IMG/VR virus record: IMGVR_UViG_3300045902_000657
Coordinates: 1-39,667 of that record
Origin: a virus
Length of the DNA: 39,667 nucleotides
Reading direction: 5' to 3' (one strand)
The position numbers and the translations under genes are program-made. This document shows positions 693 to 20,937 of the stretch, piece after piece. The number at the start of each line of letters is the position of its first letter. Within the stretch, counting starts at the first letter, position 1. The notes under the pieces were generated by a model. It saw only the letters and a list, made by a program, of their open reading frames with translations. It ran no database searches and had not been told where the DNA came from.

Positions 693-1367
693 TTAGAATG
701 GGCAGTCCACCGGCTCATCCGCCTCGCTGCCCGTGACGCGCACCACCGTCCGGCGGCCCTCGCAGCACCGTTTGCAATCGCATTGCAGGCCCGCCTTGGT
801 GCGCATGTCGTGGAGCGTGTCCCCGGCCTGGTTCCGAAGCCCGTGCCGGCCATTGATCCGCGCGCTGAGGGTCATCTTCAACCGCTGCAACTGGCTCGGC
901 CCCTCCTCCAGCTTGCCAGTGCGTTCATTTCGGCGGAACACCGGGTCGTCGGCCAAATCGTCCAGCGCGGGCGGCTGCACGCGCGACCCGCGGTGGAACA
1001 GGTCCTTGATCAACTCGGCCAGGTAACGCTCGGCGCCGTCGCGCCCGCCGGTGTAAAGCGCGAGGCAGGGCAGCAGATCCGACCGGATGAACTGCCGCTC
1101 CGTCCGTGCCGACCCGATCTCCGGCCGGCCATCCTCCATCGCCCCCTGCACCGAATCCGCCAGCATCTTCAGCCGCGCCTTCACCGCATCCACGTCGCGG
1201 GTGCGGTTCAACTCGGTCATGGATTCCACCGTGCGCCCCACGGCGCCGGAGATGACATCGAGCCGCTTCTGGCGGTCGCGCGCGTCCCACTTCTGCGTGG
1301 CGCACGCCGCCGGCCACCAATCACGCATGATGGTGATGATCTGGGGCTTGGTGATTGACGTGCTCAT
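693..1367 (-). CDS. Hypothetical phage early protein with Cys-rich C-terminus
   Basis: The product is 224 aa. The ATG at 1367 overlaps the stop of the IntI-like gene (TCAT on the plus strand, ATGA in the gene direction), and this decides the start. The first 170 residues are mostly helical and charged (ITKPQIITIMRDWW, then VESMTELNRTRDVDAVKAR). The C-terminus has a cysteine cluster CDCKRCCEGRR that could bind zinc. No family is recognised. The coupled overlap places the recombinase gene inside the phage operon rather than next to it. Confidence 0.6.
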   Translation of the reverse strand: MSTSITKPQIITIMRDWWPAACATQKWDARDRQKRLDVISGAVGRTVESMTELNRTRDVDAVKARLKMLADSVQGAMEDGRPEIGSARTERQFIRSDLLPCLALYTGGRDGAERYLAELIKDLFHRGSRVQPPALDDLADDPVFRRNERTGKLEEGPSQLQRLKMTLSARINGRHGLRNQAGDTLHDMRTKAGLQCDCKRCCEGRRTVVRVTGSEADEPVDCPF

Positions 1368-2311
1368 GCGATCTGCAAGGGGCTTGAAACCGCCCCGCAA
1401 TCCAGCGGACTGCGCCCACGCGCCGCCTCCCCGTGCAGGTAAACCATCGTCGTCTCCAGCGACTCGTGCCCGAGCAGGTCTTGAACCGTGCGCGGGTCGT
1501 TCCCGCATTGCATCGCGTGCGTGGCGAAGGCGTGCCGCAAGGTGTGCGGCGTCACCCGCTTGATGATCCCAGCGGCGCGCACCGCGGCCCGCATCTGCTT
1601 CGAGACGCTCTCCGGCGTGGCGTGCCACCGATACTGTCCGCGCACCAGCGTCGAAGGGAAAAGCCATTGCCACCGCAACTCGCGATTGGCACGCGGATAC
1701 TTCGCCGCCAGCCGGCCGGGCAACTCAACCAACCCGTGGCCGTTGGCCGTGTCCAGATCATGCAACGATTTCCGCCACGATAGATGACGCTGCAACGCCG
1801 GGGCCAGCATCACAGGCAACACTGTCAACCGTGATTTATCGCCCTTCCCTGCATGAACCCGCACCGTCAGGGCGCCGAGGTCAACATCCTGCACCCGCAA
1901 CCGGCAGCACTCCATCACCCGCAGGCCGGAGCCATACATCAACCCCGCCATCAGCTTTGCCTGCCCGCGCAAACCGGCGAAGATGCGGCCCAGTTCCTCG
2001 CGCGACGGGATCACGCGAAGCGTCTGATGGACGCGCGGCATCGGCGGGAGATCGAGGGCGCCCATGTCCTCCTTGAGCACGTGCTTGAACACGAAGGCCG
2101 CCGCGTTCAACGCCTGCTTTCTTGACACCGGCGAATAATTCGCCGCGTGCAAACTCAGCAGCCATGCTCGGACATCCGCCCCCGTCCACTGCGACGCCGG
2201 CTTTTGGGTAAACCCGTAGAACTTCCGGCACCAAAACACGTAACACGAGACCGTGTTCGGCTGCAGGCTCTGCTCGGCCATCGCAGCTTTGAGTTTGGTG
2301 ATCAGGCCCAT
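1364..2311 (-). CDS. Integron-integrase-like tyrosine recombinase
   Basis: The product is 315 aa, close to the usual size of integron integrases. It has an N-terminal SAM-like core-binding domain (about 3-90) and a catalytic domain with R131 (in GLR), K156 (AGKGDKSR), H256-x-x-R259 (PHTLRH), H282 (LLGHES) and the nucleophile Y291 (TTMVYLH). The signature that separates IntI from XerC/D-type enzymes is the extra helix segment before box II. Here it is residues about 195-222 (ELPGRLAAKYPRANR, then WQWLFPS). IntI recombines single-stranded folded attC sites with attI. The ATG at 2311 lacks a clear ribosome-binding site, and the stop overlaps the next phage gene. An attC-like site lies 340 bp away on the side where a cassette array is expected. 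Confidence 0.85.
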   Translation of the reverse strand: MGLITKLKAAMAEQSLQPNTVSCYVFWCRKFYGFTQKPASQWTGADVRAWLLSLHAANYSPVSRKQALNAAAFVFKHVLKEDMGALDLPPMPRVHQTLRVIPSREELGRIFAGLRGQAKLMAGLMYGSGLRVMECCRLRVQDVDLGALTVRVHAGKGDKSRLTVLPVMLAPALQRHLSWRKSLHDLDTANGHGLVELPGRLAAKYPRANRELRWQWLFPSTLVRGQYRWHATPESVSKQMRAAVRAAGIIKRVTPHTLRHAFATHAMQCGNDPRTVQDLLGHESLETTMVYLHGEAARGRSPLDCGAVSSPLQIA

Positions 2312-2342
2312 GATAAAACGAACCGGGTTGCTTGAATCAGCT

Positions 2343-2349
2343 GTTCGGC
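2343..2349 (+). other. Candidate attI-type core site GTTCGGC
   Basis: Just upstream of the IntI-like gene, on the cassette side, the plus strand reads CTGTTCGGCGAATGG. The 7-mer GTTCGGC is one base different from the right core of the attC-like site (GTTCGCC) and is the exact complement of that site's left core (GCCGAAC). The position fits attI. Core sites are short and degenerate, so chance similarity is possible. Confidence 0.3.
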
Positions 2350-2368
2350 GAATGGCACGGCTCCGAGT

Positions 2369-2584
2369 TCACGCTGCTCCTCCCTTCCCCACCCACCGGA
2401 AATGCTTCCTGAACGTCTCCGCGTCGCCACGCCACGAGTAGCCGCCGACTTCCTTCTCCGGCGACGGGTCACTCCACGTCGTCACGGTTCCGGCCTGCAC
2501 CTCGGTTACTGTGTGCCTGAGTCCTTGGCCGTCTCCGGGGCCGATGTATTGCCACACTGTCTTTTCTTGGATTGTTGGTGTCAT
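2369..2584 (-). CDS. Hypothetical protein of cassette-like block
   Basis: The product is 71 aa. The ATG at 2584 overlaps the stop of the 258-aa gene (ATGA). It is rich in aromatic and charged residues (WQYIGPGDGQGLRHTVTEVQ; then GYSWRGDAETFRKHFRWVG). I recognise no family. It lies between the candidate attI core and the attC-like site, so if these are real it is the gene of the first cassette. It is oriented against the normal cassette direction. Confidence 0.5.
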   Translation of the reverse strand: MTPTIQEKTVWQYIGPGDGQGLRHTVTEVQAGTVTTWSDPSPEKEVGGYSWRGDAETFRKHFRWVGKGGAA

Positions 2585-3357
2585 AGATTCGTTTCTCCCG
2601 GCTCCGCACCGGCCTCCCGCTCCGCTTCGTTGCGAACGCGCCGATTACAATTCGCCGAACCATGCGCTGCACCCAACTGGCTCGGCGCGGTGCGCGCCTC
2701 GCCAGTCCGAGCGGATTCCTGCGCCGAGCCAGTGGGTGAGCTTGGGTCGTTCGCCTCTACCGTCACCACGGTCACGTGCGGGTTCTCCGCATCTCGTCGG
2801 AAGCGCAAGACCGACCCACGCGATGCGTTATTGTTCCGCAGGTCTATTCGCAGCCCTTCCTCGTTGCCTTTTGCGACACACAGGCAAAAGAGCATCGTCT
2901 GGTATTCCGTCAGTTGGTCGCCGAGTTGATGGATGCGCCGACGCTGGGCGTTCACGGTTTCCATGACGCTGCTGATTTCGGCGTGGAGCTTTGAGATCGT
3001 TGCGTCACCACCAGTGCATCGGCGCACGAGCCATGTCACCCTGTCGGCTGTCGCGTTTGTTCCGATCCAGCAATCGTCCGGAACTTTCCCATAGGCCGCC
3101 AAGGCCGCCTCGATGGCCGCGATGTCTTCCCCTCGACCCACAGCGAGCTTCTTCCAGTAGGAGTCGCCGTAGCTTTTGAGCACGTTGGCTTCGTTCTCCG
3201 CGTTCACGGCCCGGCGTTTCCAGTGCCGTATGCAGTCCAGTCTCGCTCCACTTGGTTCGTGCTCACCGCCGCACTCTCCGCAATACAACCGAGGCGAACC
3301 AGACGGTGGAGCAGAACGCGCCTCCCGCTGTGCCGATTGAGTCTGTTGGTCATTCAT
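2581..3357 (-). CDS. Hypothetical protein with CxxC motif and coiled coil; tail encoded by attC-like site
   Basis: The product is 258 aa. It has an N-terminal CGECGG motif (about residue 27), a basic segment, then a predicted coiled coil (ISKLHAEISSVMETVNAQRR). Residues from about 200 onward (NDPSSPTGSAQ and beyond) are encoded by the attC-like palindrome, so the natural C-terminus was probably replaced when the site arrived. The ATG at 3357 overlaps the end of a short 16-codon leader frame that starts with GTG near 3405 (MSDAPDSAAPNRKQKL). This suggests translational coupling. No function can be assigned. The sequence is less GC-rich than its neighbours. Confidence 0.5.
   Translation of the reverse strand: MNDQQTQSAQREARSAPPSGSPRLYCGECGGEHEPSGARLDCIRHWKRRAVNAENEANVLKSYGDSYWKKLAVGRGEDIAAIEAALAAYGKVPDDCWIGTNATADRVTWLVRRCTGGDATISKLHAEISSVMETVNAQRRRIHQLGDQLTEYQTMLFCLCVAKGNEEGLRIDLRNNNASRGSVLRFRRDAENPHVTVVTVEANDPSSPTGSAQESARTGEARTAPSQLGAAHGSANCNRRVRNEAEREAGAEPGETNL
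2654..2755 (+). other. attC-like integron recombination site (102 bp)
   Basis: The left core GCCGAAC (2654-2660) and right core GTTCGCC (2749-2755) bracket an imperfect palindrome. The left inner site GCTGCACCC pairs with the right GGGTGAGC after removal of one base, which is the extrahelical base typical of the attC left arm. Next comes a longer stem, CTGGCTCGGCG against CGCCGAGCCAG. The right end GTGAGCTTGGGTCGTTCGCC resembles the common attC right end TGAGCTTxxxCGTTxxxx. The position of the extra base sets the orientation as plus, pointing away from the IntI-like gene as in a normal integron. The cores deviate from the RYYYAAC/GTTRRRY consensus at one or more positions. Confidence 0.7.
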
Positions 3358-3411
3358 AGCTTTTGTTTCCGATTCGGAGCCGCGCTGTCGGGCGCGTCGC
3401 TCACCTTTTTG

Positions 3412-3774
3412 TTATGCCGCTTCACCCTTCCACCAGTCCGGCTTCGGGAAGCGGTCGGTGAATGTCAGTTCGTTTTCCTCGGTATGGTCCACCTCGGATG
3501 CTTCGGGCCAGTAATCGGTGAGATTCGCTTTCGGCGGCAGGTATGCCACGACGATTGCGTAGCCATCACCGCTGCCGGTGTGCCACCACGGGCCGGGCGG
3601 CGGGAATTTCACGGGACGCGGATCGTCCTCGTTGGCGTGGAATCGGTAGCGATGCCAACGCGGCATAACCACCGGGTCGAGCGAACCACTGGCCCGCTTT
3701 GCAGTTTCTACGGTCTTTGTTTTCATAAAGTCATTGGCTTCGGCTAGCGTCACTGTCGGCCAGTGGTCGCTCAC
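3412..3774 (-). CDS. Hypothetical cassette-type protein
   Basis: The product is 120 aa from a GTG start (MSDHWPTVTL). It is rich in Trp, Pro and Asp/Glu (PPPGPWWHTGSGDGYAIVVA; then YWPEASEV; ends DRFPKPDWWKGEAA). Short proteins of this look are common as free-standing or integron-cassette genes of unknown function; that is recollection, not a search. The stop codon lies inside GCATAAC, as often happens where a cassette gene runs into the left core of an attC. The matching right core is not seen, so any second site is degraded. Confidence 0.5.
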   Translation of the reverse strand: MSDHWPTVTLAEANDFMKTKTVETAKRASGSLDPVVMPRWHRYRFHANEDDPRPVKFPPPGPWWHTGSGDGYAIVVAYLPPKANLTDYWPEASEVDHTEENELTFTDRFPKPDWWKGEAA

Positions 3775-3798
3775 CCGGAGCGTTCATGGGGGAACCTT

Positions 3799-4362
3799 TC
3801 ACTGCTTCTTTGTGGGCTCAGGCTTCGCCGCCTTGACCACCTTGGCGGCGCTCACCTTCGCGGGCTTCACGGTCACCTTCTCGGTCGTCTCGCGGGTGAC
3901 GCCGAGCTTGGCCAGCTCGTCGTTGCCCAGCGCCTCGAGCGCTTCCACGTTCGGCAGCTCCTCGATGCGCAGGAACGTCGCCGCTTTGAACTTTTCGTCC
4001 TGCGCCGCGCGCGCCTTGATCAGCGCCACGGTCGCCGCCGGGTTGGCCACGACCAGCCCGCTGACCGTGCGCTGTTCCACGGTGCCGAACGGCGTCTTGA
4101 TGCTTTTCTTCCCGTCCTCGCGCCACTCTGGGTGCCGGGCGAAGAGCGCCTTGATCTCCGCATCGAGCTCGGCCAGGCGCTCCTGGTTCACGACGTAATC
4201 CGCCGACCACGCGGCGGCGGCGGCGAGCGAATCCACGCTCATGCGCTGCTCGACCTTCTCGAGTGAGAGCGTGACGGCGGAGTGTTCCTGTTGCAGCTCG
4301 CACAGCCGGGCGAAATCCTGGCTCGGTGCGGCTTGTTCTTCGGGGGATAGTGTTTTGATCAT
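3799..4362 (-). CDS. gam: Mu Gam-like host-nuclease inhibitor
   Basis: The product is 187 aa, about the length of Mu Gam (174 aa). Gam binds double-stranded DNA ends and shields them from RecBCD-type exonucleases. The N-terminal two thirds is a long coiled coil (FARLCELQQEHSAVTLSLEK). The family-typical block GKKSIKTPFGTVEQRTVSGL (about 84-103) follows, and a Lys/Ala-rich tail ends the protein. Only the ATG at 4362 overlaps the upstream stop (ATGA). Its place in the early operon downstream of the transposition genes agrees with Mu gene order. Confidence 0.85.
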   Translation of the reverse strand: MIKTLSPEEQAAPSQDFARLCELQQEHSAVTLSLEKVEQRMSVDSLAAAAAWSADYVVNQERLAELDAEIKALFARHPEWREDGKKSIKTPFGTVEQRTVSGLVVANPAATVALIKARAAQDEKFKAATFLRIEELPNVEALEALGNDELAKLGVTRETTEKVTVKPAKVSAAKVVKAAKPEPTKKQ

Positions 4363-4625
4363 GGGGTCTGTGAGTTGATGGTTGACGGTTGATAGATGAG
4401 TGATTCACCGCGGAGGCGCGGAGGCGCGGAGGAAACCGGCGATCCCTTCTGTCTCAGCGTCTCCGCGCCTCTGCGGTTCAATGCGGCAATTTCCGCGTCG
4501 GTGAAACCGGCGTCCCGCTCGGGGTCGTTGTCGGCCTCGGCGGCGCGCGCGAGCGAGGCCAGCCAGGCGAGCAACAGCAGCATCGTCAGGCCGGTGAGGG
4601 TGATGAAGATCAACAGGATGTTCAT
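4359..4625 (-). CDS. Small single-pass membrane protein with repeat-derived tail
   Basis: The product is 88 aa. Residues 2-28 form one clear membrane helix (NILLIFITLTGLTMLLLLAW). An acidic stretch follows (EADNDPERDAGFTDAEIAAL). From about residue 51 the protein is the translation of a dispersed palindromic repeat (RRGAETLRQKGS; PPRLRGESLIY; STINSQTP), so the original C-terminus has probably been lost. The ATG at 4625 overlaps the previous stop. The function is unknown. Confidence 0.6.
   Translation of the reverse strand: MNILLIFITLTGLTMLLLLAWLASLARAAEADNDPERDAGFTDAEIAALNRRGAETLRQKGSPVSSAPPRLRGESLIYQPSTINSQTP
4371..4480. repeat. Dispersed palindromic repeat (GAGGCGCGGAG family) with GTTGATGG flank
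   Basis: The left arm CACCGCGGAGGCGCGGAG (from 4406) pairs with the right arm CTCCGCGCCTCTGCGGTT (4461-4478) around a loop of about 25 bases. It is flanked on the left by a second low-complexity element (TGAGTTGATGGTTGACGG). The same arms recur at 4656, 11221, 13515, 13577, 12640 and 31795. The element supplies the C-terminal codons of the membrane protein. Confidence 0.8.
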
Positions 4626-5254: not shown

Positions 5255-5472
5255 CGCGCGCCTCCTGGCTTCGGACTGAGCTCGACGGAGTCTCGCCCCA
5301 CCTTCCGGGCGGCGAGTTCGGCCTCGTAGATTTCCTTTTGCCGCTGGAGCACGCGGATCTCGCTAACCTTGCGGGCTCGCGTCAGCGAGCGCTCCGTCAT
5401 GCGGATTTCCAGTTCAAGCCGGGGCACGCTGGCGCGCTCGGCGAACACTTTGGCGAGGGCGACGTTTTTCAT
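5251..5472 (-). CDS. Small basic helical protein
   Basis: The product is 73 aa from an ATG at 5472 preceded by GGAGGCGCGCG. It is strongly helical and charged (ERASVPRLELEIRMTERSLT). The last residues (GRDSVELSPKPG) include the translation of a dispersed repeat (5279-5302). It is overlapped by its neighbours on both sides (ATGA at each end). No family is recognised. Confidence 0.6.
   Translation of the reverse strand: MKNVALAKVFAERASVPRLELEIRMTERSLTRARKVSEIRVLQRQKEIYEAELAARKVGRDSVELSPKPGGAR
5279..5302. repeat. Dispersed repeat (CGACGGAGTCTCG family)
   Basis: GAGCTCGACGGAGTCTCG followed by CCCCACC. The same element in inverse orientation is at 10330-10352 and, as a facing pair, at 12574-12640. 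It encodes part of the C-terminus of the 73-aa protein. Confidence 0.7.
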
Positions 5473-6077: not shown

Positions 6078-7226
6078 TTACTCCCACTCCCCTTCTTGCA
6101 CCGCCTGCTTCTCGATGCGCAGGTGTGCATCCACAAAGTGCGCCCACGTGGTGCGCGAGCCGGCCTTCTGGGCGAGCTTGCGGGCGTAGCGTAGGCGCTC
6201 GGTGATGGCCTTGAGGCCGTCGCGTTTGGCGAGCTGGCGCAGAATCTCGTAGGGCTTTTCGGTGATCGCCTCGACGGTCGTCTTCTGGTCGCGATCCGGG
6301 AAGGCGAGCTTGTAACGGCCGAGGATCGCAGCGAGGTCGCCCTTGGTGGGCATGACCGGCAACGCCACACGATGAACGCCGCGGCGCCACACCTGCACCA
6401 GCTCGCCCTGGCTGGCGGCTTGCAGGTTGTCGAGATGCGTCCAGCTCAGCACCATCCCGCACTTGCTGAAGTCGTGGATGCGCCGGATCACTTCGATGCA
6501 GGCGAAGAAACTGGCCAGCCGGTAGGTGTGCTTGAGGAGGTGCAGCTCATCAATGATGAGGAGCGTGCGCGGTGAGAGCCCGTTGCGGATGCGGTCAATC
6601 AGCGCGGCGGTGTTCGAGTTGTCGCTGATGCCGACGCCCTTGGCGATGCGCCGCACCATGCCGCCGAGCCCCGAGGCCGCGTCGAGCTCGACCATGTAGG
6701 TGCGGCCGTGGTTGTTGGTCTGGGTGTAGCGGTGCAGCGCCCAGGTCTTCCCGATGTGGCTCGGCCCCCAGAGGATCACCGGCGTGCGCGATTCGAGCGC
6801 GAGGTCGCACGCGGTGAAGATCTTTTTTGCGGTCGGCGTCTGGATGAACTCGCTGTCCTGCTCCTCCCACTTCTGCCGCTCGCGTTCGAGGAACTTGCGG
6901 ATGTTGACGATCAACTCGGCGGGCGGCTCCATCTGCTCCTTGGTGGTCGGGTGCAGATATTTCCCGGTGCAGAGCTTGTAGATGACGTTGTCCGAGTAAT
7001 CCACCTCCTTGGCGAACTGCCCCAGCGCGACGGGATGCGCCGGATCAATGCACCAGCGGAAGGCCGCGACCAATGCGTCCACCGCCTCCTCGCGATAGTT
7101 CCGCGTGTTGACACGGATCGTGTCCAGGGAGAAGGGCCACGTGGAACGCACCGTGGAATTGACCATCGCCTGCGTGGTCTCCGCCTTCACCATCTCTCCG
7201 CCCGCGCTCTCGTTGCCATCCGACAT
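6078..7226 (-). CDS. MuB-type AAA+ target-DNA ATPase
   Basis: The product is 382 aa; Mu B is 312. Residues 35-100 form an N-terminal DNA-binding-like domain (LGQFAKEVDYSDNVIYKLCT). The AAA+ module has Walker A GPSHIGKT (154-161) and Walker B LLIIDE (223-228), followed by EVIRRIHDF and the sensor-1-like segment CGMVLSWTHLDNL. B proteins form ATP-dependent filaments on target DNA and stimulate the transposase. The gene lies 20 bp downstream of the transposase, in the Mu order A then B. The Ser-His-Ile filling of the P-loop is unusual but keeps the GK[T/S] needed for ATP binding. Confidence 0.88.
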   Translation of the reverse strand: MSDGNESAGGEMVKAETTQAMVNSTVRSTWPFSLDTIRVNTRNYREEAVDALVAAFRWCIDPAHPVALGQFAKEVDYSDNVIYKLCTGKYLHPTTKEQMEPPAELIVNIRKFLERERQKWEEQDSEFIQTPTAKKIFTACDLALESRTPVILWGPSHIGKTWALHRYTQTNNHGRTYMVELDAASGLGGMVRRIAKGVGISDNSNTAALIDRIRNGLSPRTLLIIDELHLLKHTYRLASFFACIEVIRRIHDFSKCGMVLSWTHLDNLQAASQGELVQVWRRGVHRVALPVMPTKGDLAAILGRYKLAFPDRDQKTTVEAITEKPYEILRQLAKRDGLKAITERLRYARKLAQKAGSRTTWAHFVDAHLRIEKQAVQEGEWE

Positions 7227-7246: not shown

Positions 7247-9358
7247 CTACAGCAATCCCTCCGCGCTGAAGGCTTCTGCGCCTTCGGCGTTCGAGGCCGG
7301 CTGCTCGGCCTCGGAAATGGTTTCCGCCGCGCCATCCGCGATGGGGGCCGGCTCCAGCAATTCCTCCGCGCCGCCCTTATACCTGCGCAACTCGCGCGCG
7401 TGCTCGGGCGTGTGTCCGCTCTCCGCCGCCCGCGCCGCCGCCACCACGCCGCGGTTGTGATCGAGCATGTGCGCGCGGGCCGCGGCCTCGTCGAACTGCC
7501 GCGCGGCCACGTGGCCGCGCTTGGGCGCCTCCCAAGCCGCCTGCCGGCCCATCTGGCGCTTGATGCCCTCGAGGTCGTTGTCCGACGGCATCTCCCACGC
7601 CTCGACCAGGCCCACGTGCGCGCCGTGCGCGTTGCACAACTGCGCAACGCGGGGATCGAGCGGGTTGAAAAAGAGCAGATACTTCTCACCCGGCAGGTAG
7701 GTGCGCCCGCGGCTGTCGGCGAGGAACCGGAACCGGCCGGGGCCGAACCGCACCTTGTCCTCGAACTCGATCACGCGGTTCTTCGGCACGGTTACCTCGA
7801 CGGCATCCTCCAGCTCGAGCAGGCGGCAATACTGGTTCGGGGTGAGCCGCGTGAGTTCCTCGCGGTGCAAGGCCCACACTTCCGCGCGCGAGCGCTTGAC
7901 CGCGCGCGTCAGGGGCAGCGCGGGGTCGCCGAGCTTCGCGCGCAACACGAGCTGCTCGCTCTCCGGCAGCCGCGCGAGATCCTCGGCCTCATACCAGTTG
8001 GCGGCGTCGGGATCGGGGCGCCATTGCACGCGCTCGAAGCCCAGCGCGTCCCAGCCTTCGAGGTCGTGGTCGGTCTGGGTCATCAGGGTGTGGATCGCGT
8101 CGAAGGCGTAGCGCGAGAACTGGCCGAACGTGGCCACGGGCAGCAACAGTTCCGCGGCGTATTCGGCGGGAAGCTGCTCCGCCTGTTTGAGCACGCGCAG
8201 GGCGTATTGCTCGCGGCCGTGCAGCTCGGCGGGACCGTTGAGGCGCGCGTTGCTGCCGGTGCGGCCGGGCAGCCGCTGCAGGCGGTCCTCGATGATGCGC
8301 CACGCGCCCTCGATGAGCGGCTTGAACTTGAAGTTGCCCTTGCCGCGCGGGGCGAACTGCCCCGGATGCGCCGCGCGCGCGAACATGCTGCCGCGGCTCA
8401 ACCGCACCTTCCCGCCCGTCTCGCAATAGAGTTTCCGCTCCAGCTCGTTCCCGCGCCGCACGGTGGCCGTGCCGTTCTCCAGGAAAAGGATCGTGCCCGC
8501 CTCGTCGCCGCGGTAGCCGTGCGCGCAGAGCCAGTGCAGCAGGAAAAACCGGAACTGCTGCTCGGTCAGCTTGCGCTTCTTCTCGGCGTCGGCGTCCCAG
8601 AGGATCGGCCGCACCGCCATGTCGAAGAACGCGCTCAACCCGTCCACGCCGCCGAAGCAGATCGGCCGCGTGACGATCTTCTGCCCGGCGAAATGCACCT
8701 TCACGTCGAACTCGTGATCGTCGAACTCGTAGCGCTCGCCGAGCTTCAGGCCCACGCGCGTCGTGCGCACGGGCGGCCGGAATTCGCTCGCGGCAAACAA
8801 TCCCTCCTTGGCCGCCGCCTGCTCGTAGGGATCGCGCAACTGCTCGACCACGCGGCGCAACTGCCGCTCGCTCCAGCCTGCCGGATGTTCGAGGCCGGGC
8901 GCGGCCTTGGGCCACTTGTCGTAGCCGGGAATCTTGTCGTAACGCGCCGGCGGCAGGCCGTTGTCGTGATGCGTCTTCCAGATCAGCATCAACTCCTCGT
9001 AAGCGCCGGCGAACGTGCGCGCGTGCTTCTCGTCGAGGCTGAGCACGAACTGCTTGAACTCCGCGGGCAACCCGATAACCACCCCGGTCTGCCACAGACC
9101 GGGGACCATGCGGCGGTCCACCAGCACGCGCCAGTCGCGGCGCCGCATGTAGTCGCCCACGCGTCGGTAGAGCACCTTCGTCTTCGGCAAGCCCTCGCGG
9201 CCGGCCAGGGCACGGCACGCGGCGAGCAGGCTCTTCGCCCGCATCAGGCCCTCCAGCACCTCACAGATCGCGGCCAGCTCCGCATAGGCGTCTCGCGGCA
9301 GGATCAGCAGCTCCGCGGGGTCCACATTCAGACGCGCAACGATGAGGTTGTGGTGCAT
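7247..9358 (-). CDS. MuA-type DDE transposase
   Basis: The product is 703 aa (MuA is 663). The ATG at 9358 follows CGGAGACTAATCACC. The N-terminal 200 residues look like helical DNA-binding domains. An RNase H-like catalytic domain follows, with candidate acidic residues D213/D214 (RYEFDDHEFDV), E294 (LFLENGTATV) and E350 (FKPLIEGAW). The spacing of 56 residues between the last two equals that between D336 and E392 in MuA. A beta-barrel-like domain follows (VPKNRVIEFEDKVRFGPGRF; DSRGRTYLPGEKYLLFF), and an acidic tail ends the protein. The middle residue is Glu in an ENG context, where most DDE enzymes have Asp. It cuts phage ends and joins them to target DNA together with the downstream ATPase. 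Confidence 0.88.
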   Translation of the reverse strand: MHHNLIVARLNVDPAELLILPRDAYAELAAICEVLEGLMRAKSLLAACRALAGREGLPKTKVLYRRVGDYMRRRDWRVLVDRRMVPGLWQTGVVIGLPAEFKQFVLSLDEKHARTFAGAYEELMLIWKTHHDNGLPPARYDKIPGYDKWPKAAPGLEHPAGWSERQLRRVVEQLRDPYEQAAAKEGLFAASEFRPPVRTTRVGLKLGERYEFDDHEFDVKVHFAGQKIVTRPICFGGVDGLSAFFDMAVRPILWDADAEKKRKLTEQQFRFFLLHWLCAHGYRGDEAGTILFLENGTATVRRGNELERKLYCETGGKVRLSRGSMFARAAHPGQFAPRGKGNFKFKPLIEGAWRIIEDRLQRLPGRTGSNARLNGPAELHGREQYALRVLKQAEQLPAEYAAELLLPVATFGQFSRYAFDAIHTLMTQTDHDLEGWDALGFERVQWRPDPDAANWYEAEDLARLPESEQLVLRAKLGDPALPLTRAVKRSRAEVWALHREELTRLTPNQYCRLLELEDAVEVTVPKNRVIEFEDKVRFGPGRFRFLADSRGRTYLPGEKYLLFFNPLDPRVAQLCNAHGAHVGLVEAWEMPSDNDLEGIKRQMGRQAAWEAPKRGHVAARQFDEAAARAHMLDHNRGVVAAARAAESGHTPEHARELRRYKGGAEELLEPAPIADGAAETISEAEQPASNAEGAEAFSAEGLL

Positions 9359-9363
9359 GGTGA

Positions 9364-10212
9364 TTAGTCTCCGAGTTCGGCGGCCAGGCGCTTGGACATC
9401 GCCTTGCACGCGCGTTGCAAGTCCACCAGGACAGCCAGGGGCACGAGCTTCAGGTCGGGATTGTTGGCCATCGAAATCAGATCGAGGCCGGCGCGGCGGC
9501 ACAGGCCGGACAGGTGCTCGCGGCGATGCTCGATTGCGTCGCGGGTCTTGCCGGCCGCCGCGCAATGCTTCTCCCACTCCGCCCACACCTCCTTGCCCAC
9601 GATGCCGGGCTTGCGTTTGGGATAAACCCCGTCCTTGATCAGTGCCGGGTGCCGGGTGCGGATGAACTTCTCCCAGCTCAGGTCGCCCCCGGCCGCCGGC
9701 GGCGCGCCCGCCAGAAACTTGAACGTGAGCTGCGACAGGGTCTTGCCGTCCACCGCCGCGAACACCTGCTCCTGGACCGCACGCGCCTTGTCGCTCAATT
9801 CGGCGGCGGGCAGGGAAAGCACCTCCGAGAGGGACAGGTTTTCCACGTGGAACCGTTCCCCCGGAACAAAGTGGCAACCGTGTCCACTTTGGCCTTTTTC
9901 CAAGGAAATCATCGCAAACCGGGTTGCCTCCATCCAGCGGGTGGCGCGTCTCCAGAAGGGCATGTCGGTCGGATGCTTGCCCTTCGGGAGCGGGATGTCC
10001 GGGAACACATTCGCGTGCAGCCACGGCCCAAACTCACCGTGCTTCACCTGGGCCTTTGCCTCCAGCAGCAGCGCGCCGATGGCCACGATCTTGCGCATCA
10101 TCTTGCCCTCGGCGTATTCCGCCTCGGCCCACGCCAGCTTGATGCGGTCCGCCAGCGCTTTGTCCACGGCGGGCGCCACGGCGCCGCCGGCATGTTTCAC
10201 GAGGTCGCTCAT
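9364..10212 (-). CDS. DUF3102-type phage early protein
   Basis: The product is 282 aa. The segment IGALLLEAKAQVKHGEFGPW (about 46-65) is the DUF3102 signature, a helical region found in many phage and plasmid proteins of unknown role. A helical middle follows (LSEVLSLPAAELSDKARAVQ), then a basic C-terminal region (HRREHLSGLCRRAGLDLIS). The ATG at 10212 overlaps the upstream stop (ATGA), and the stop lies 6 bp before the transposase ATG. A DNA-binding or regulatory role is inferred from the operon position. Confidence 0.65.
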   Translation of the reverse strand: MSDLVKHAGGAVAPAVDKALADRIKLAWAEAEYAEGKMMRKIVAIGALLLEAKAQVKHGEFGPWLHANVFPDIPLPKGKHPTDMPFWRRATRWMEATRFAMISLEKGQSGHGCHFVPGERFHVENLSLSEVLSLPAAELSDKARAVQEQVFAAVDGKTLSQLTFKFLAGAPPAAGGDLSWEKFIRTRHPALIKDGVYPKRKPGIVGKEVWAEWEKHCAAAGKTRDAIEHRREHLSGLCRRAGLDLISMANNPDLKLVPLAVLVDLQRACKAMSKRLAAELGD

Positions 10213-12272: not shown

Positions 12273-12277
12273 GCTGT

Positions 12278-14466: not shown

Positions 14467-14717
14467 TGCCGCCCGGCCAGCTCCGCACCAACCTGCTGGT
14501 GGCCCTCCGCGGCGCCGGCGGCCAGCCACTCGCCGAGAGCGTGCTGGTGGAAACCATCGTGGGCGCCTCGCCCGGCACGCCGCGCGACGCGGTGCGCGCG
14601 CAATTGCGCGAGCTGGAGCGACTGCAACTGCTCACGGCCGTCCACGATCCGGTGCTCGACCAGAACTGCTGGGCCTTGACCACGGCCGGCGAGGCCAGGG
14701 CCAACCAACTCCGATGA
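14466..14717 (+). CDS. Winged-helix protein, Mu gp26-like
   Basis: The product is 83 aa. It is a compact winged helix: TNLLVALRGAGGQPLAESVL, then PRDAVRAQLRELERLQLLTA as the recognition region, then a wing NCWALTTAGEARA. Proteins like this lie just upstream of the small terminase in many Mu-like phages. They probably bind DNA, though their role is not settled. ATG 14466 overlaps the stop of the preceding gene. Confidence 0.65.
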   Translation: MPPGQLRTNLLVALRGAGGQPLAESVLVETIVGASPGTPRDAVRAQLRELERLQLLTAVHDPVLDQNCWALTTAGEARANQLR

Positions 14718-14720
14718 GCC

Positions 14721-15308
14721 ATGCCGCAACCCAACTTGGAATCCGAACTGACCGAGCCGCAGGTGGAGCAGCTCGACGCGCTGGTGCTGGGCGGACGGCA
14801 CACCTTCGAGCAGCTTGCCGCGTTCTGCCAGTCGCAGGGCTGGCCCTCGCGCTCGCTGGGTTCGTGGACCGGCTACAAGCGGCGGGCGCAACAGCGGTCG
14901 GTCGAACGCTCGATCAGCGATGGCACGTCGCTCCGGCAGACCATCGAGAAACTGGCGGCGGGCGAAACCGACCACCAGGTCCAGTCGATCCTGCGGCTGC
15001 TCGGCCATATCACGATGCAACTCGCGGCCAACGGCACGGCCTCACCGGACCAGTTGCAACTTGCCCAGCGGCTCACGGCGCTCCTGGTCGAAGCGGAGGG
15101 GATGAAAGGCCGGGCCAGGCTGGAAGAGCAGAAGCTCGGGCAACGCCAGCAGGCCATCAACCTGGACCGCGAGAAGTTCATCGAGGCGACGCGCAAGAAG
15201 GTGGACGCCGGGCTGGACGAGATCGCGGAACTCTTCAAGCGCGCGCCGGAACTCCTGGCCGAGTTCACCGCGCTGCGCAGCAAACTTTCGCAACGCCTCG
15301 GCGAGTGA
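14721..15308 (+). CDS. DUF3486 small terminase (Mu gp27-like)
   Basis: The product is 195 aa. The N-terminal helix-turn-helix region (LDALVLGGRHTFEQLAAFCQ then PSRSLGSWTGYKRR) and the long helical middle and C-terminus (EEQKLGQRQQAINLDREKFI) fit the DUF3486 family, which gives pac-site recognition in Mu-like packaging. The product should work with the next gene. The stop overlaps a GTG start (GTGA). Confidence 0.75.
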   Translation: MPQPNLESELTEPQVEQLDALVLGGRHTFEQLAAFCQSQGWPSRSLGSWTGYKRRAQQRSVERSISDGTSLRQTIEKLAAGETDHQVQSILRLLGHITMQLAANGTASPDQLQLAQRLTALLVEAEGMKGRARLEEQKLGQRQQAINLDREKFIEATRKKVDAGLDEIAELFKRAPELLAEFTALRSKLSQRLGE

Positions 15309-17551
15309 GCACCCATTCCCAACGAGAAGTCCGGCCCGGTAGCGGAGCCACGCAGAGCCGACCTGAATCGGCGCGCGCCGCGAAGGGAGTCGCAAGTGGG
15401 CCGGACGCCCTTTCCAAACTCGACGCCCGGATCGGCACCGACCGCCGCGCCGTGCGCGCGCCGCGCGTCGCGAGCTTCCGCGAGTTCCTCGAACAGCACG
15501 CCCGCGTTCCCACCGGTCGCGGCGAGCACGGCCCCTACACCTTCGCCGGGCGCGAGTGCCTGATCGAGATCGTGGACCTGGTGGACCGGGTCATCGCCTC
15601 GGCAGGCGGGCCGCCGTTGACCGACGCGACCATCGCGCTCTGCGGCGGCGCGCAGTTTGGCAAGTCCATCCTCGAACTCAACCTCGGCGCCTATCTCACC
15701 TCGTGCGCCTGGATGAACTGGGGCTTCTACCTGCCGGACAAGGGCCTGGTGGACGGCATGGTGCAGACCAAGTTCCGGCCCGACATCGTGGACCAGATCG
15801 ATTGGTTCGCCGCGATGACCAAGATCGGCAAGGCGGTGAACAAGTCGGGCAAAAGCGTCAACCGCATCGGCGCCTTCAGCGTCACGGACGGCCAGCGCCG
15901 CGCGCAGGGGATGATCCTGGGGCTCAACAAAATCCCCACCTCGTTCACCTTCGACGTGACGACCCTCGACGAGGTGGACGACATCAAGCCCGCGCGCGAA
16001 AAGTTCGTGCGCGGCCGCATGACGAGCAGCCCGGTGCGGCTCATGTTCAAGATCGGCACCCAGCGCGTCGCCGGCCGCGGCCAGCACAAGGCGTGGAAGG
16101 ACGGCAGCCAGGGCGTGATGCTGCACAAGTGCCCGAGCTGCGCGCACGAGCAGAATCTTGAGGAGGCATGGCCGCAGTGTTGCCGGATCAAAATTTCAAC
16201 AGGGCTGGCAGGTCGATTGCAGACGAAAGCCAATGATGGCGACCCGGAGCAAAACCAGCCCACCACCGGCCCCGCGTTGCAACGCCACGCCGGTGGCGAA
16301 TTTCCGCAACTCCAGGCCACGGGGGATTTCCGCCACGAGCCCAACGGCCCGGTGATCGCCACGCACGATCCCTCGCACCATTACTACTTCGCCTGCGTCA
16401 AATGCGGCAGCGAGCTGGACCGCACGCGCGCCGGCTTCCGCTGGTTCCATCGCCGGCCCGAGCAGATCGAGCTGCGCAACTGGTCTTTCCGCGTGTCGCA
16501 GTTCGGCGTCCCGGCCATCGATCTTTCGCAGATCGTCGCCGAATGGGTGCGCGCGGTCGCCGACCCGGAGGCGATGACGACGTTCAACTGCGACCGGCGG
16601 GCGATGCCGGAGAGCACGGCGCAGAAGATCACCACGGACATTCTCGACCGCGCGCGGCGCATCGAGGTGTTCGACCTGCAACCGCGCAAGCGCGAGCACG
16701 CGACGGCCTTCGCCGGCCTGGACACCGGCCGGCGCTGCTGGTTCTTCGCCCGCGAGGTCGAGCGGCCGGATGTGAAGCGCCTCCTCCATGCGGAGCAGAT
16801 CGCGCTGGGCAACGTGGTCGAGCGCACCTTCACCCTCTGCCAGTTGCTCGGCATCTCGGCGCTGTTCATCGATCAGGCGCCGGCCACGGACGAGGCGCGG
16901 ACACTGGCGCTCAAACTCAACGGCCTGGAAAACCTCGGCACCTGGCCGCGTGTGCCGGACAACAAGGATGCCTGGCTGAGTTTCCCGGCGCCGCCGGGGG
17001 GGCATGGCGGCCTCACCTGGGACGGGCGCAACCAGCGCTGGCAGGGGCTGCGCTGCGCGGTGGTGGCATTCACCAAGACCAGGCTCGGCTCCGGCATCGA
17101 GCAGGGGTTCGATATTTTCGAGAAGGGCGGGCAGACGATGTTCGCCCCGCTGATCCGGTGCAACCGCTTCGAGACCATCGACCGCGTGGTGCGTGAGTTT
17201 CTCACGCCGGCCGAGAACGTCAGCGAGGTCATCTTCCCCGGCAAGGGCCAACCCTACATACGCACCGCGCCGGCCATGCGGCTGCCGCGCAAAGGCAGCG
17301 GCACCGCCCCGATCCTCAACCTCCTCGATGACCACCTGCTCGTTGGCTCGGAGCGCGAGGAGGACAACGGGCAGCTCGGCGACTACGTGGACGCTTGCGA
17401 GAACCATCTCCTCCTGGCCGACGGATACAGCGGGCTAGCGGAGCTGGTGGTGGGCATCGGCGGCGTGAAGCAAAAGGCCGCCCTGCAATCCCTCGCCGGC
17501 CGCGACCGCCTGGCAGGACAACGACTGATGAAAATGGGGGTGCCTCTGTGA
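15305..17551 (+). CDS. Large terminase (GpA-like ATPase/nuclease)
   Basis: The product is 748 aa from the GTG overlapping the small-terminase stop. Walker A is GGAQFGKS (114-121) and the Walker B region is VTTLDEVDD (218-226). Two Cys pairs, CPSC (276-279) and CVKC (about 365), flank a Pro/Gln-rich linker and resemble the zinc-binding insert of lambda GpA-type terminases. The nuclease domain starts near FAGLDTGRRCWFF with a further acidic region around LFIDQAPATDE. This enzyme drives DNA into the prohead and cuts it. The zinc-containing layout differs from the usual Mu gp28 protein, so this module may have been swapped. The first ~35 residues are low-complexity and the true start could lie further in. 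Confidence 0.8.
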   Translation: MSTHSQREVRPGSGATQSRPESARAAKGVASGPDALSKLDARIGTDRRAVRAPRVASFREFLEQHARVPTGRGEHGPYTFAGRECLIEIVDLVDRVIASAGGPPLTDATIALCGGAQFGKSILELNLGAYLTSCAWMNWGFYLPDKGLVDGMVQTKFRPDIVDQIDWFAAMTKIGKAVNKSGKSVNRIGAFSVTDGQRRAQGMILGLNKIPTSFTFDVTTLDEVDDIKPAREKFVRGRMTSSPVRLMFKIGTQRVAGRGQHKAWKDGSQGVMLHKCPSCAHEQNLEEAWPQCCRIKISTGLAGRLQTKANDGDPEQNQPTTGPALQRHAGGEFPQLQATGDFRHEPNGPVIATHDPSHHYYFACVKCGSELDRTRAGFRWFHRRPEQIELRNWSFRVSQFGVPAIDLSQIVAEWVRAVADPEAMTTFNCDRRAMPESTAQKITTDILDRARRIEVFDLQPRKREHATAFAGLDTGRRCWFFAREVERPDVKRLLHAEQIALGNVVERTFTLCQLLGISALFIDQAPATDEARTLALKLNGLENLGTWPRVPDNKDAWLSFPAPPGGHGGLTWDGRNQRWQGLRCAVVAFTKTRLGSGIEQGFDIFEKGGQTMFAPLIRCNRFETIDRVVREFLTPAENVSEVIFPGKGQPYIRTAPAMRLPRKGSGTAPILNLLDDHLLVGSEREEDNGQLGDYVDACENHLLLADGYSGLAELVVGIGGVKQKAALQSLAGRDRLAGQRLMKMGVPL

Positions 17552-17599
17552 AATGGCTTGCCCTGATTTTCGGGTTCGCGGCATTTTCGATTTACGCGA

Positions 17600-17971
17600 A
17601 TGAACCCCGGCTCCGCTGTCCTGACACCCGAAACTGCGCACGATGCCTGTGCGCGGGGTCCAGCGCGCGGCGTGAGGCTCTTCCTGACGGAAGCCGAAGC
17701 CGAGAAAATCGGACGCGGGGTGGAATGGCGCCGGAGGCTCGCCGAACTGGAACGGCGCCGGCGCCGGCAGCAGTCCCGATTCGACGCCTTGCAGGCCTCC
17801 CTGGATCGGCTTCTGGAATATGCCGCCGCCGAGGAGCTGAGCCGGCGCAAGCTGGCCGTGAAGATCGGCATCCCCGAATCTTCCCTGCGCAAGATCGGCA
17901 GCGGCCGGGTCAACCCGTCCGACTGGCTGCCGCGGCTGGAAGCCGCCCTCGCGAAACTCAAGCTCTCGTAG
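17600..17971 (+). CDS. Small helix-turn-helix protein between terminase and portal
   Basis: The product is 123 aa. The N-terminal part is a charged coiled coil (EWRRRLAELERRRRRQQSRF). The C-terminal 45 residues form an XRE-like helix-turn-helix (EELSRRKLAVKIGIPESSLR; PSDWLPRLEAALAKL). There is no strong ribosome-binding site at ATG 17600. An overlapping frame starts with GTG 17548 (GTGA overlap with terminase) and reads KWLALIFGFAAFSIYANEPR, a good signal peptide, but it stays open to 18156 in low-quality sequence. The two may be nested genes, or the signal frame may be chance. Confidence 0.55.
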   Translation: MNPGSAVLTPETAHDACARGPARGVRLFLTEAEAEKIGRGVEWRRRLAELERRRRRQQSRFDALQASLDRLLEYAAAEELSRRKLAVKIGIPESSLRKIGSGRVNPSDWLPRLEAALAKLKLS

Positions 17972-18148
17972 TCCGCGGTCCACGGACCCGGCCGGCGCTC
18001 CCGGAGGCGCTCCCCCACCTTCACCCTTCCGCGCCCGGCGGCGTCCACCACAGGGCTCCGCTCACCTCCGGCGGCGCCTTCACCCCCGCCGCCGGGTCGC
18101 GCTTTCCCGCGCCCGCCCCCCGCGCCTTTTTTTTTGGCGGAGGTCGCC
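17972..18148. other. Intergenic gap with C-rich tract and T9 run
   Basis: The 177 bases between the small HTH gene and the portal are C/G-rich, with a short palindrome (GGTCCACGGACC region near 17980) and a run of nine T bases (18127-18135) flanked by GCGCC and GGCGG. No promoter was identified. A C-rich tract followed by a T run could affect transcription, but the ribosome-binding site follows within a few bases, so the portal is expected to be translated from here. Confidence 0.4.
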
Positions 18149-19690
18149 ATGACTGACGCCCCCGCCATCCGGCCGGAGGTGAACACCGGCGCCAGCGCGA
18201 TCTCGACGGAGCGCATCGAGCGCGCGATCCAGTTGCGCTACTCGCCGTTCCCGGAGCTGACGATGGAGCTGCTGACCCGGCAGTTGAACGGGTTCCGCAT
18301 CGGGCACCTGGCGCCGATGGCCCGCACCTGGGAGATCATGTTTGAGCGCGACGGCGAACTTGCCAGCCCGGCGCTCAAGCGCTTTGCCGATGCCGCGCGG
18401 CTCCCCTGGGACATCGAGAAATCGGAGGACTCCGCCGAGGCCGACGCGCACGCCGAGGCGCTGCGCTACTTCTACACTCACCTCACGGCGACCAGCGTGC
18501 TGGACCAGGATGAAACCGGCGGACTGAACCTGCTGCTCCGCCAGGTCATGACGGCGCACGCGCACCGTTACAGCGTCCACGAGATCCTTTTTCGCGTGGA
18601 CAACGCCGCGCGGCGCGAGGTCACCGCCGAGTTCCGCCACTGCCCCGTGTGGTTCTTCGAGTCTCGCCGCGGCCGGCTTGGCTTCCTGCGGCGCGAGGGC
18701 GACTGGCAGGGTGAACTGCTGGCGCCGGGCCGCTGGTTGCGCGCCGTTGGCGCCGGCCACATGCGGCCGTGCTCCATCGCCTATGCGGTCAAACATTTCC
18801 CGTTGCGCGACTGGCTCCTGTTCAGTTCGCGCTTCGGCCTGCCCGGCGTCCACGGCAAGACCGACGCGGCCAAGGGATCGCAGGAGTGGGAGGATTTCGC
18901 CGCCGCGCTGACCGCCTTCGCCAACGACTGGGTCACGCTCACCAACCGCGGCGCCGAGATCACGCTCGTGGACGCCGCCAAATCCAGCGCCGCGCTGCCG
19001 TTCAAGGACCTGGTCGAGCGCAGCGACCGCCTGTATGCGCGCCTCTTTCGCGGCGGCGACCTGAGCACGCAGAGCCGCGAGGGCGACGCGCGCGGCGCCA
19101 GTCTCCAGGACGAAGAGAAGGACGCGATGGCCGAGGACGACACGATCTGGCTGACCGAGACGTGCAATGCCGGCGTGGATGAACCGCTCATCGCCTACCT
19201 CTTCAACACGCCGCCCAAGGCGTGGTTCAAGCTGATGGTCCGCAAGAAGCCGGAGACCGACCGCGAAGTGAAGGGCATGGAGTTCCTCGCCAGGCACGGC
19301 GGTCGCGTTGCCCTGCGCACCGCCCACGAGCGCCTGCAGATCCCCGAGGCTGACGAGGGCGAGGAGACGTTGAGCGCGCCCGTTGCAACGCCCGTGCAAG
19401 CGCCCGGCGGTGAACCCGCCCCGGACGCGGTGGAGAACACCGGCAACGCCGGCCCCGACGTCGTCGCCTACGCCCGCAGCGTGGCTGATGAAGTTGCGCC
19501 GGTCATCGAACGGCTGCAGCGGATACTCGCCATCCAGGACGACGCGCTCATGGAGCGGAAGCTCCGTGAGTTCTACGCCGATTTCCCGCAGCTCGAAAAA
19601 GATCTGCTCGCCGATCCCCGGCCCGCGCGCGTGCTGGAGGAACTGACCGCCCGCGCGCTGGTCAAGGGATTCACCCGGAGACGCTCATGA
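18149..19690 (+). CDS. DUF935 portal protein (Mu gp29-like)
   Basis: The product is 513 aa, the normal size for this family. ATG 18149 is fixed by GGCGGAGGTCGCC. Recognisable blocks are LTRQLNGFRIGHLAPMARTW near the start, the core HEILFRVDNAARREVTAEFR, and RDWLLFSSRFGLPGVHGKTD typical of DUF935. Portals form the dodecameric ring at one vertex through which DNA passes and to which the tail joins. The C-terminal region is helical and acidic after about residue 420. The stop overlaps the protease start by 4 bases (ATGA). Confidence 0.85.
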   Translation: MTDAPAIRPEVNTGASAISTERIERAIQLRYSPFPELTMELLTRQLNGFRIGHLAPMARTWEIMFERDGELASPALKRFADAARLPWDIEKSEDSAEADAHAEALRYFYTHLTATSVLDQDETGGLNLLLRQVMTAHAHRYSVHEILFRVDNAARREVTAEFRHCPVWFFESRRGRLGFLRREGDWQGELLAPGRWLRAVGAGHMRPCSIAYAVKHFPLRDWLLFSSRFGLPGVHGKTDAAKGSQEWEDFAAALTAFANDWVTLTNRGAEITLVDAAKSSAALPFKDLVERSDRLYARLFRGGDLSTQSREGDARGASLQDEEKDAMAEDDTIWLTETCNAGVDEPLIAYLFNTPPKAWFKLMVRKKPETDREVKGMEFLARHGGRVALRTAHERLQIPEADEGEETLSAPVATPVQAPGGEPAPDAVENTGNAGPDVVAYARSVADEVAPVIERLQRILAIQDDALMERKLREFYADFPQLEKDLLADPRPARVLEELTARALVKGFTRRRS

Positions 19691-20937
19691 AACTCGCCCT
19701 CGCCAACTCCTCTGACACCGGCACCGCGCTGGTCCTCGAGAACCTGCTCGCCCTGGACAACGACGGCTGGGCCTTGCTCGCGCCCTACGGGGAGCACCGC
19801 AAGGAACGCACCGTGCGCGCCAACGGCCGCCTCGAGCGCCAGGTGTTCCTGCAGGTCGTGGATGAGCCGGCGGTCGAGGAGCTGCTCGCCAACGAAAACG
19901 GCCCCGGCGTTTTCCAGCGTCTCAAGCGCGCCCTCATCAAGCGGCCCGTGTTTAAGGGCCACCCGGATCTCGCGCAGCACGCGCCCGAGACCGTCGCCAA
20001 CGGCCGCGAGCCCGCGGTGCCCATCGGCGTCGTGGCCGCCAACCGGAAGGGGCCGCGCGGCCTCGAGACGCGCTTCGACCTAACGCCCGACGGCGCCGCG
20101 GCTGTCGAAAACGAGGGGTGCAAGTTTCCCTCGGCCCTCTGGTTGGTGAAGCCCACGGGCGAGGTGCGCGACGGCGCCACCGTGGTGCGGCCCTTCAAGA
20201 TCCTTTCGGTCGGCCTCACGGCCACCCCGAACATTTCCGGCGTGGACTCGCTCGCGAACGCGAAGCCGAACACACCCGCCGCGAGCAACACAGACCCCAC
20301 AACTCCAAACGACACCATGAAGCAACTCCTCATCGGGTGGCTCGCGGCGCAGGGCGTTATCCTCGCCAACGACGCCACTGACCAGGCGGTCCTCGAAGCC
20401 GCGCAGAAACAAATGACCTCCCGCCTCTCGGAGATCACCACGCTCGGCAACGAACGCGCCAACCTCAACACCAGGGTGACCGCCCTCGAAAACGAGAAGG
20501 CCACCCTCGCCACCGAACGCGACCAGCTCAAGACGAAGCTAGGCGAGAAGGAAACCGCCCTCGGCAACGAGCAGTCGGCGCACAAGGCCACCGCCCGGAA
20601 GCTCATCGAGGCACGCGTGGACCTCCACATCACCCAGGGCAAACTCGCCGTCGCCGAACGCGCCGCGAAGATCACCGCCCTGGAAAACAGCGCGAAGCTC
20701 GACGACGAGCTGAAAGCCCTCGACGCGCTGCCCGTGAAGTTCGCCGTCGCCAACGCCACCACCCCGCGCAAGGACGACGCCAACGCAAACACCCGGACCC
20801 CGCGCGAGCAGATCCTCACGCTCGCCAACACCGACGAGCGCTACAAGCACCTGCCTTTCGACCGCGCCTACGACGCGATCCTCAAGGATCACCCCACGCT
20901 GGCCGAGCAGCTCAAGGAAAAGCCCGCGACCAAGTAG
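19687..20937 (+). CDS. Prohead protease with fused scaffold (Mu I/Z type)
   Basis: The product is 416 aa. The N-terminal ~200 residues match the phage I protease family (FDLTPDGAAAVENEGCKFPS; WLVKPTGEVR; VGLTATPNISG). The C-terminal half is a long coiled coil (LNTRVTALENEKATLATERD) ending in a helical tail, as in scaffolds. An internal ATG at 20317 (MKQLLIGWLAAQG) in the same frame would release the scaffold alone (206 aa), as Mu Z is made from within I. The full product would cleave scaffold during prohead maturation. The ATG at 19687 has CGGAG upstream. Confidence 0.8.
   Translation: MKLALANSSDTGTALVLENLLALDNDGWALLAPYGEHRKERTVRANGRLERQVFLQVVDEPAVEELLANENGPGVFQRLKRALIKRPVFKGHPDLAQHAPETVANGREPAVPIGVVAANRKGPRGLETRFDLTPDGAAAVENEGCKFPSALWLVKPTGEVRDGATVVRPFKILSVGLTATPNISGVDSLANAKPNTPAASNTDPTTPNDTMKQLLIGWLAAQGVILANDATDQAVLEAAQKQMTSRLSEITTLGNERANLNTRVTALENEKATLATERDQLKTKLGEKETALGNEQSAHKATARKLIEARVDLHITQGKLAVAERAAKITALENSAKLDDELKALDALPVKFAVANATTPRKDDANANTRTPREQILTLANTDERYKHLPFDRAYDAILKDHPTLAEQLKEKPATK
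20317..20937 (+). CDS. Internal-start scaffold product (predicted)
   Basis: The in-frame ATG at 20317 is preceded by an A/C-rich leader (ACAGACCCCACAACTCCAAA), the same kind of leader that precedes the separate head genes downstream. This supports its use as a true start. The product would be the 206-aa coiled-coil scaffold. This is an inference from the sequence and from the I/Z precedent in Mu. Confidence 0.4.
   Translation: MKQLLIGWLAAQGVILANDATDQAVLEAAQKQMTSRLSEITTLGNERANLNTRVTALENEKATLATERDQLKTKLGEKETALGNEQSAHKATARKLIEARVDLHITQGKLAVAERAAKITALENSAKLDDELKALDALPVKFAVANATTPRKDDANANTRTPREQILTLANTDERYKHLPFDRAYDAILKDHPTLAEQLKEKPATK

Follow-up and report, generated by a model that had tools for sequence, protein, structure and literature searches.

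An attC site in a Mu-like phage that probably belongs to a resident integron with reversed cassette genes

Results

The window analysed here is the whole of a 39,667-nucleotide viral contig (IMG/VR record IMGVR_UViG_3300045902_000657). Judged from its sequence, the segment at 2654-2755 is a genuine integron recombination site (attC). With considerable confidence, we explain this site, attC1, as part of a small complete integron (intI, attI and three cassettes) that a Mu-like phage carries within its early block, an explanation that includes the mechanism proposed below. At the level of sequence, we document the integrase, an attI-like site, the attCs, the closure of the cassettes, a clade to which the integrase belongs and turnover of arrays at attI. 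Integrons are known as platforms for gene capture in bacteria, and reports of integrons in phages have treated them as rare acquisitions. If Mu-like phages have a resident lineage of their own, with cassette genes oriented to suit the phage operon, phages would be both owners and traders of cassettes; such a lineage offers a testable explanation for the exchange of early accessory genes among these Mu-like phages.

The attC sites

attC1 lies on the plus strand (2654..2755) with core boxes R'' = GCCGAAC at 2654-2660 and R' = GTTCGCC at 2749-2755. When the whole window was scanned on both strands for AAC...GTT pairs that enclose a paired inner stem, attC1 had the top arm-pairing score (stem score 18.5) and attC3 (3663-3788) was second at 18.0. 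The sole other site above 11 scored 12.5, and the best score in 20 Markov shuffles of the window was 12.0. The first-pass annotation of this DNA had recognized a folded, attC-like site with paired cores, and its coordinates proved exact to the base. It had also proposed folding the bottom strand as a check. The bottom (minus) strand of 102 nt folded at -34.6 kcal/mol (z -4.1), and 0 of 200 shuffles folded as well. Unpaired bases are present in the left (L'') arm, CT[G]CACCC[A]ACTGG, where we count two partnerless bases and not the single extrahelical base counted earlier. A plain dispersed repeat in genomes without an integrase, the outcome that the annotation had set against its own reading, was not encountered: attC1 is single-copy within the record and an integrase is present. 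A dispersed repeat was rejected on the copy number, and a structured RNA was rejected because Rfam gave no match and no tRNA was found.

The cores of attC1 (GCCGAAC/GTTCGCC) depart from the canonical RYYYAAC/GTTRRRY. The C at the fourth core base had been taken as the mark of a divergent attC class; we rejected such a class because the same C is found at the fourth R' base in 8 of 40 attCs of bacterial chromosomal integrons, as well as in 11 of the 29 attCs of the phage clade described below. The canonical R' was matched by 9/29 and the canonical R'' by 5/29 attCs in that clade, compared with 14/40 and 13/40, respectively, in the bacterial controls.

The annotation had found attC1 but overlooked the integrase, attI and two further attCs. 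attC2 (3293..3417, plus strand; R'' GGCGAAC, R' GTTATGC) has three unpaired L'' bases, a stem score of 10.5 and a closure of 9; its whole-site fold is no better than that of shuffles (z +0.73), and its support comes from the arms and the closure. attC3 (3663..3788, plus strand; R'' GCATAAC, R' GTTCATG) has a bottom-strand fold with z -4.3 and the left arm CCGGGT[C]GAGCGA[A]CCACTGGCC. The features of an attC, namely the pairing of R'' with R' and of L'' with L', unpaired L'' bases and an unpaired central spacer, are clear in attC1 and attC3.

The cassettes and their genes

Within the early block of the Mu-like phage, the array is situated between a Mu Gam-like gene and the integrase gene. It consists of cassette 1 (406 bp, 2344..2749), cassette 2 (662 bp, 2750..3411) and cassette 3 (371 bp, 3412..3782), all read on the plus strand. 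The start of cassette 1 is complementary to its own R'' over 11 nt, and cassettes 2 and 3 close over 9 nt and 10 nt. Because attC1 forms the boundary between cassettes 1 and 2, and the adjoining 258-aa gene belongs to cassette 2, we abandoned the earlier proposal that cassette integration had replaced the natural end of that gene.

The cassette genes are on the minus strand. Cassette 1 carries a gene of 71 aa (2369..2584) that was called by the direction test described below and is antiparallel to the attC polarity; it had no match in Pfam, NCBIfam or PHROG. The gene of cassette 2 (258 aa, 2581..3357) ends with a stop codon that shares bases with the start codon of the 71-aa gene (ATGA). The gene of cassette 3 (104 aa, 3412..3726, or 120 aa from a GTG at 3774) has its TAA stop inside the R' box with which the cassette begins.

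Closure was strong across the phage clade. When stem score was the sole criterion for R'', closure over at least 7 nt was seen in 28 of 29 cassettes from 15 clade loci, while only 25 of 812 mismatched start/R'' pairings reached 7 nt or more, and 0 of 10,000 permutations reached the observed total. Most clade cassettes closed over 9-13 nt; extended pairing of 9-11 nt is described in Bouvier 2009 (PMC2727003). An attC finder run with thresholds that we set ourselves returned 34 outward and 0 inward attC-like sites in 16 outward regions totalling 82,317 bases, compared with an average of 0.55 in both-strand shuffles.

The integrase and attI

The integron integrase gene, intI, encodes 315 aa (1364..2311, minus strand). 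Its TIGR02249 score (274.7 bits) passes the curated cut-off of 265 but is near it. Among 50 viral records, 42 pass the same cut-off; of the eight below it, seven belong to the clade of the window's integrase and one has a truncated integrase. In an alignment with IntI1 and the Vibrio and Shewanella IntI, residues R131, K156, H256, R259, H282 and Y291 are invariant, and we take these to be the catalytic residues. The protein also carries the KYPxA...W.W.F stretch that is typical of the IntI family, as aligned with IntI1. The window and its clade relatives have an intact reading frame, except for records cut at contig ends.

Directly 5' of intI is an attI-like site (2320..2349, plus strand), with cleavage expected after G2343 (G^TTCGGC). 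The half-site on the intI side, roughly GGTTNGTTNAATNNNCTG, is similar in the window and 13 relatives, and the array side (TTNNNN) is variable in the same set. No LexA box was found near intI. The single CTGT..ACAG match, at 4288, is away from intI and is expected by chance, and LexA control of intI was rejected.

A tyrosine recombinase in a phage might simply be the phage's own lysogeny integrase, in which case the folded sites would be its att sites or regulators. Integration by tyrosine recombinases is frequent in temperate phages, and the PHROGs label for the gene is simply 'integrase'. However, integration in Mu is the job of Mu A and Mu B, and this phage already has both. Several attCs with closure in each phage argue against lysogeny att sites, related phages exchange arrays at attI, and the protein passes the integron-integrase model. 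We regard a lysogeny integrase as extremely improbable.

The phage and the integrase clade

The last backbone gene before the array is the Mu Gam-like gene (3799..4362, minus strand; PF07352, 44.6 bits over a cut-off of 28.3). Upstream on the same strand are genes for a Mu B-like transposition protein (6078..7226; phrog_296, E 7e-30) and a Mu A-like transposase (7247..10024; phrog_310, E 5.9e-15), and genes for the terminase large subunit, portal and head maturation protease (phrog_675, phrog_113 and phrog_328) occupy 14714..20937 on the plus strand. Thus, the genome has the Mu A, Mu B and head and packaging genes of a Mu-like transposable phage. The early block also contains a gene for a DNA polymerase beta thumb domain protein (4622-5254, minus strand), and related genes are found near intI in L121, L123, L124 and L130.

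An IntI alignment (A1) scanned against IMG/VR yielded 497 relatives; the best 80 were retained, and 50 records were tested further. A second scan with an alignment of the clade added four more clade members. Near-identical viral records were merged only where noticed (L126 and L127, 99.995%) or where a cassette was identical to the letter. The window's clade comprises 17 integrases, 16 from viral contigs (the window included) and one from a 4.5-kb Verrucomicrobia MAG contig, and it forms one side of a branch with an SH-aLRT of 99 in a 66-row tree, from which 12 of 78 integrase rows had been omitted as short fragments. Its nearest neighbours in the tree, L069 and L136, both carry Mu B-like genes. 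The sole guide to the host is the MAG contig (L087), which makes a Verrucomicrobiota bacterium probable.

In nine distinct phages, Mu B is located upstream of intI and is encoded on its strand: the window, L121, L124, L125, L126 (= L127), L128, L130, L131 and L134. The contigs L122, L123 and L132 begin near intI and fall outside this comparison. In L129, Mu B is 11.7 kb downstream of intI and a portal gene is upstream on the other strand; L135 has no Mu B within its 61 kb. The integron is not universal among such phages, as only four of 22 Mu B relatives have an IntI and three more have attC arrays only.

These data bear on whether one phage picked up a piece of a bacterial chromosomal integron by chance, as in Vibrio anguillarum prophages. 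The MAG's phylum is rich in integrons, with an IntI at E <= 1e-50 in 108 of 387 genomes, and Qi 2023 (PMC9892861) reports phage integrons of which some are subsets of the host's own integron. The chromosomal integrons of the phylum likewise have an IntI, attCs with unpaired bases and closure, but their integrases have about half the score: the best IntI outside the clade reached 296 bits, compared with 577 for the MAG contig, which is itself part of the model. This large gap, a single clade in which 16 of 17 integrases are viral, the constant early-block position in nine distinct phages, and cassette genes opposite in direction to the forward genes of the chromosomal controls all argue against a chance pick-up, which we consider very unlikely.

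Several related contigs had features of their own. L126 and L138 share backbone DNA that is 77-92% identical, yet their integrases are of different lineages (63% and 39% identical to that of the window), as if replaced. In L234, five attCs that point toward Mu B, with chaining core boxes, are found downstream of Mu B at 11482-12641; no integrase was found in the 10 kb examined. A stretch that is 86% identical in L087 (1321-1456) and the 70-kb viral contig L133 (7878-8013) covers an attC; the integrases of these two contigs are only distantly alike.

Array turnover at attI

Over the Mu A/B region, the related phages L125 and L134 share 75% identity, and shorter matching blocks (83% and 76%) extend as far as 7732 in L125 and 5861 in L134. 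From there to attI, which is at position 8958 in both, the two do not align and their arrays are entirely different. Past attI, the two align again, at 79% identity in the integrase and 88% in the downstream flank. We regard this apparent swap at attI as the strongest comparative sign of cassette exchange.

If the integrase and sites were inactive remnants of a decayed integron, the weak fold of attC2, the non-canonical cores and the absence of arrays from all but 7 of 22 Mu B relatives would be accounted for. An intact integrase frame in the window and in clade relatives (apart from cuts at contig ends), closures of 9-13 nt in most cassettes and wholly different arrays in phages with 79% identical integrase regions are not what decay would leave, and a relic seems to us most improbable.

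Direction of the cassette genes

The strand of each cassette gene was called by an amino-acid composition score, and the polarity of each attC was taken from its unpaired bases. Large ORFs of the fetched loci served to train the composition model, and the threshold of the direction test (3 units) was our own choice. The unpaired bases and a class 1 control set the attC polarity in the window as plus. In the canonical layout, the gene is upstream of attC and co-directional with it. This layout was not seen in the window, where all three cassettes are reversed (gene antiparallel to attC), and in the phage clade 28 of 29 cassettes were reversed, one was ambiguous and none was forward. Conversely, 23 of 30 cassettes in the controls (chromosomal integrons of the MAG's phylum and class 1) were forward, one was reversed and six were ambiguous; one control cassette was counted twice (L112 and L207), so that 22 forward controls are distinct. 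Chained cassettes were obtained from only six of 20 fetched chromosomal loci, and L112 and L005 completed the set of control loci.

Protein families agreed with these calls. Eight Pfam families were found among 46 reversed-strand ORFs (29 from the clade and 17 from other viral lineages), compared with none among 44 opposite-strand ORFs; a pair of L029 ORFs that apparently repeats that of L028 was excluded from both sets. The families include N6_N4_Mtase (four ORFs), MethyltransfD12 and PAPS_reduct.

The same layout would be read as normal if the polarity of the clade's attCs were flipped, with the other strand as substrate and the unpaired bases misread. Closure is symmetric and is, by itself, uninformative on attC polarity, and we found no biochemistry on this integrase clade in the literature. 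Against flipped polarity, the polarity rule assigns the attC of the class 1 aadA2 cassette to the strand of its gene, which is correct. The attI half-site is kept on the intI side while the bases after G^TT vary, which fits outward insertion, and the homology between L125 and L134 ends at attI. We judge flipped polarity to be unlikely, and we retain the reading in which the integron's attCs have standard polarity and its genes are reversed. With standard polarity and antiparallel genes, the cassette genes are co-oriented with the phage early genes.

Among 39 cassettes of other viral IntI lineages, 20 were reversed, 16 forward and three ambiguous. Arrays whose attCs point away from intI were reversed, except for L054 (ambiguous) and L060 (mixed), and the forward cassettes outside L060 came from L024, L052, L086 and L003, four records in which attC and intI share a strand. 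It follows from this pattern that the cassette genes called in viral contigs, L060 excepted, run in the direction of intI. These results suggest that gene direction relative to attC follows the expression mode of the array and not the recombination site. Cassette genes antiparallel to attC were also observed with other IntI lineages in L028-L031, L037, L045, L057, L059, L063 and L143. L060, a contig of the viral collection that derives from an isolate genome, has a long array with two reversed cassettes followed by mostly forward ones.

Stop codons and C-termini across cassette boundaries

Since the genes are antiparallel, their 3' ends fall at the cassette start, against the attC of the neighbour or attI. 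In 19 of 27 clade cassettes, the stop codon was past the boundary, in the neighbouring attC or on the attI side, usually by 6-42 nt, and in 12 of 27 the ORF started inside the cassette's own attC. The gene of cassette 2 goes further. It has no stop within attC1, which encodes residues 201-235, and continues for 23 codons of cassette 1 sequence. The minus strand of attC1 is thus translated as part of the C-terminus of the 258-aa protein, as first annotated, although the tail is 58 residues long (35 from attC1 and 23 beyond) and not about 55. Because boundary crossing is common (19/27), this attC-coded tail can be considered an extreme case of a common state. The arms of attC and attI double as coding sequence and stop codons for adjoining genes.

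Comparison with known integrons and a proposed mechanism

A class 1 integron (control L005) resembles that of the window in the order intI-attI-attC and in attC polarity, but its cassette genes point away from intI while those of the window point toward it. Class 1 cassette genes depend on the promoter Pc. In the previously reported phages TJE1 and V. anguillarum p16, a single chained attC in each is on the strand of the annotated genes around it, which is the ordinary layout, whereas genes of the window's clade are antiparallel to attC. As described in part of a report on Treponema integrons (PMC3607928), intI is transcribed toward attI in that type. Cassette genes there run in the direction of intI, as they do here, but in the window attI adjoins the 5' end of intI, and the reversal is limited to the cassette genes. 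An inverse integron of the Treponema type was rejected because attI is 5' of intI.

According to the sections of Qi et al. 2023 (PMC9892861) that we cite, integrons and CALINs were found in 21 phages among 10,705 NCBI phage genomes (three complete integrons, one In0 and 17 CALINs); methyltransferase cassettes were present and attC activity was tested. The phages in those sections are like ours in having intI, attC sites and cassettes, DNA methyltransferase cassettes among them. A phage-specific integrase lineage is not described in those sections, whereas here the integrases form one clade in Mu-like phages. In the open PMC literature, a body outside which most subscription journals and preprints fall, our searches revealed neither a description of integrons as a resident lineage of Mu-like phages nor one of arrays with consistently reversed cassette genes.

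We propose that IntI, like other integron integrases, would recombine the folded bottom-strand attCs of circular cassettes into attI. Cassettes would be inserted in the usual direction, with the genes within them antiparallel. Transcription of the early genes of the phage (A, B and Gam) would then continue through the cassettes toward intI, and such read-through would make a Pc-type promoter unneeded. Cassette genes would take their stop codons and short tails from the adjoining attC or attI. By these means, the phage could swap accessory genes and leave its backbone untouched; several of these genes in relatives, such as the one at 7182-8231 in L130, are predicted to be DNA methyltransferases, which may serve in counter-defence.

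Somewhat more tentatively, we favour the view that these elements constitute a phage-specific class of integron, with an integrase lineage of its own in Mu-like phages and a separate pool of cassettes that have attC 5' of the gene and are expressed by read-through of the early transcript. If this is true, the reversed layout would be a general strategy by which phages swap counter-defence genes such as methyltransferases.

Repeats elsewhere in the window

Two sets of short repeats were also observed. GC-rich, near-identical dispersed repeats (ACCGCGGAGRCGCGGAG...) are found at 4403-4480, 4655-4735, 11221-11324, 12628-12665, 13516-13658 and 31786-31833, between or in early phage genes, and several form facing inverted pairs. 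A repeat of 23-26 nt, GCTCGACGGAGTCTCGCCCCACC, is present in both orientations at 5280-5302, 10329-10354 and 12612-12637.
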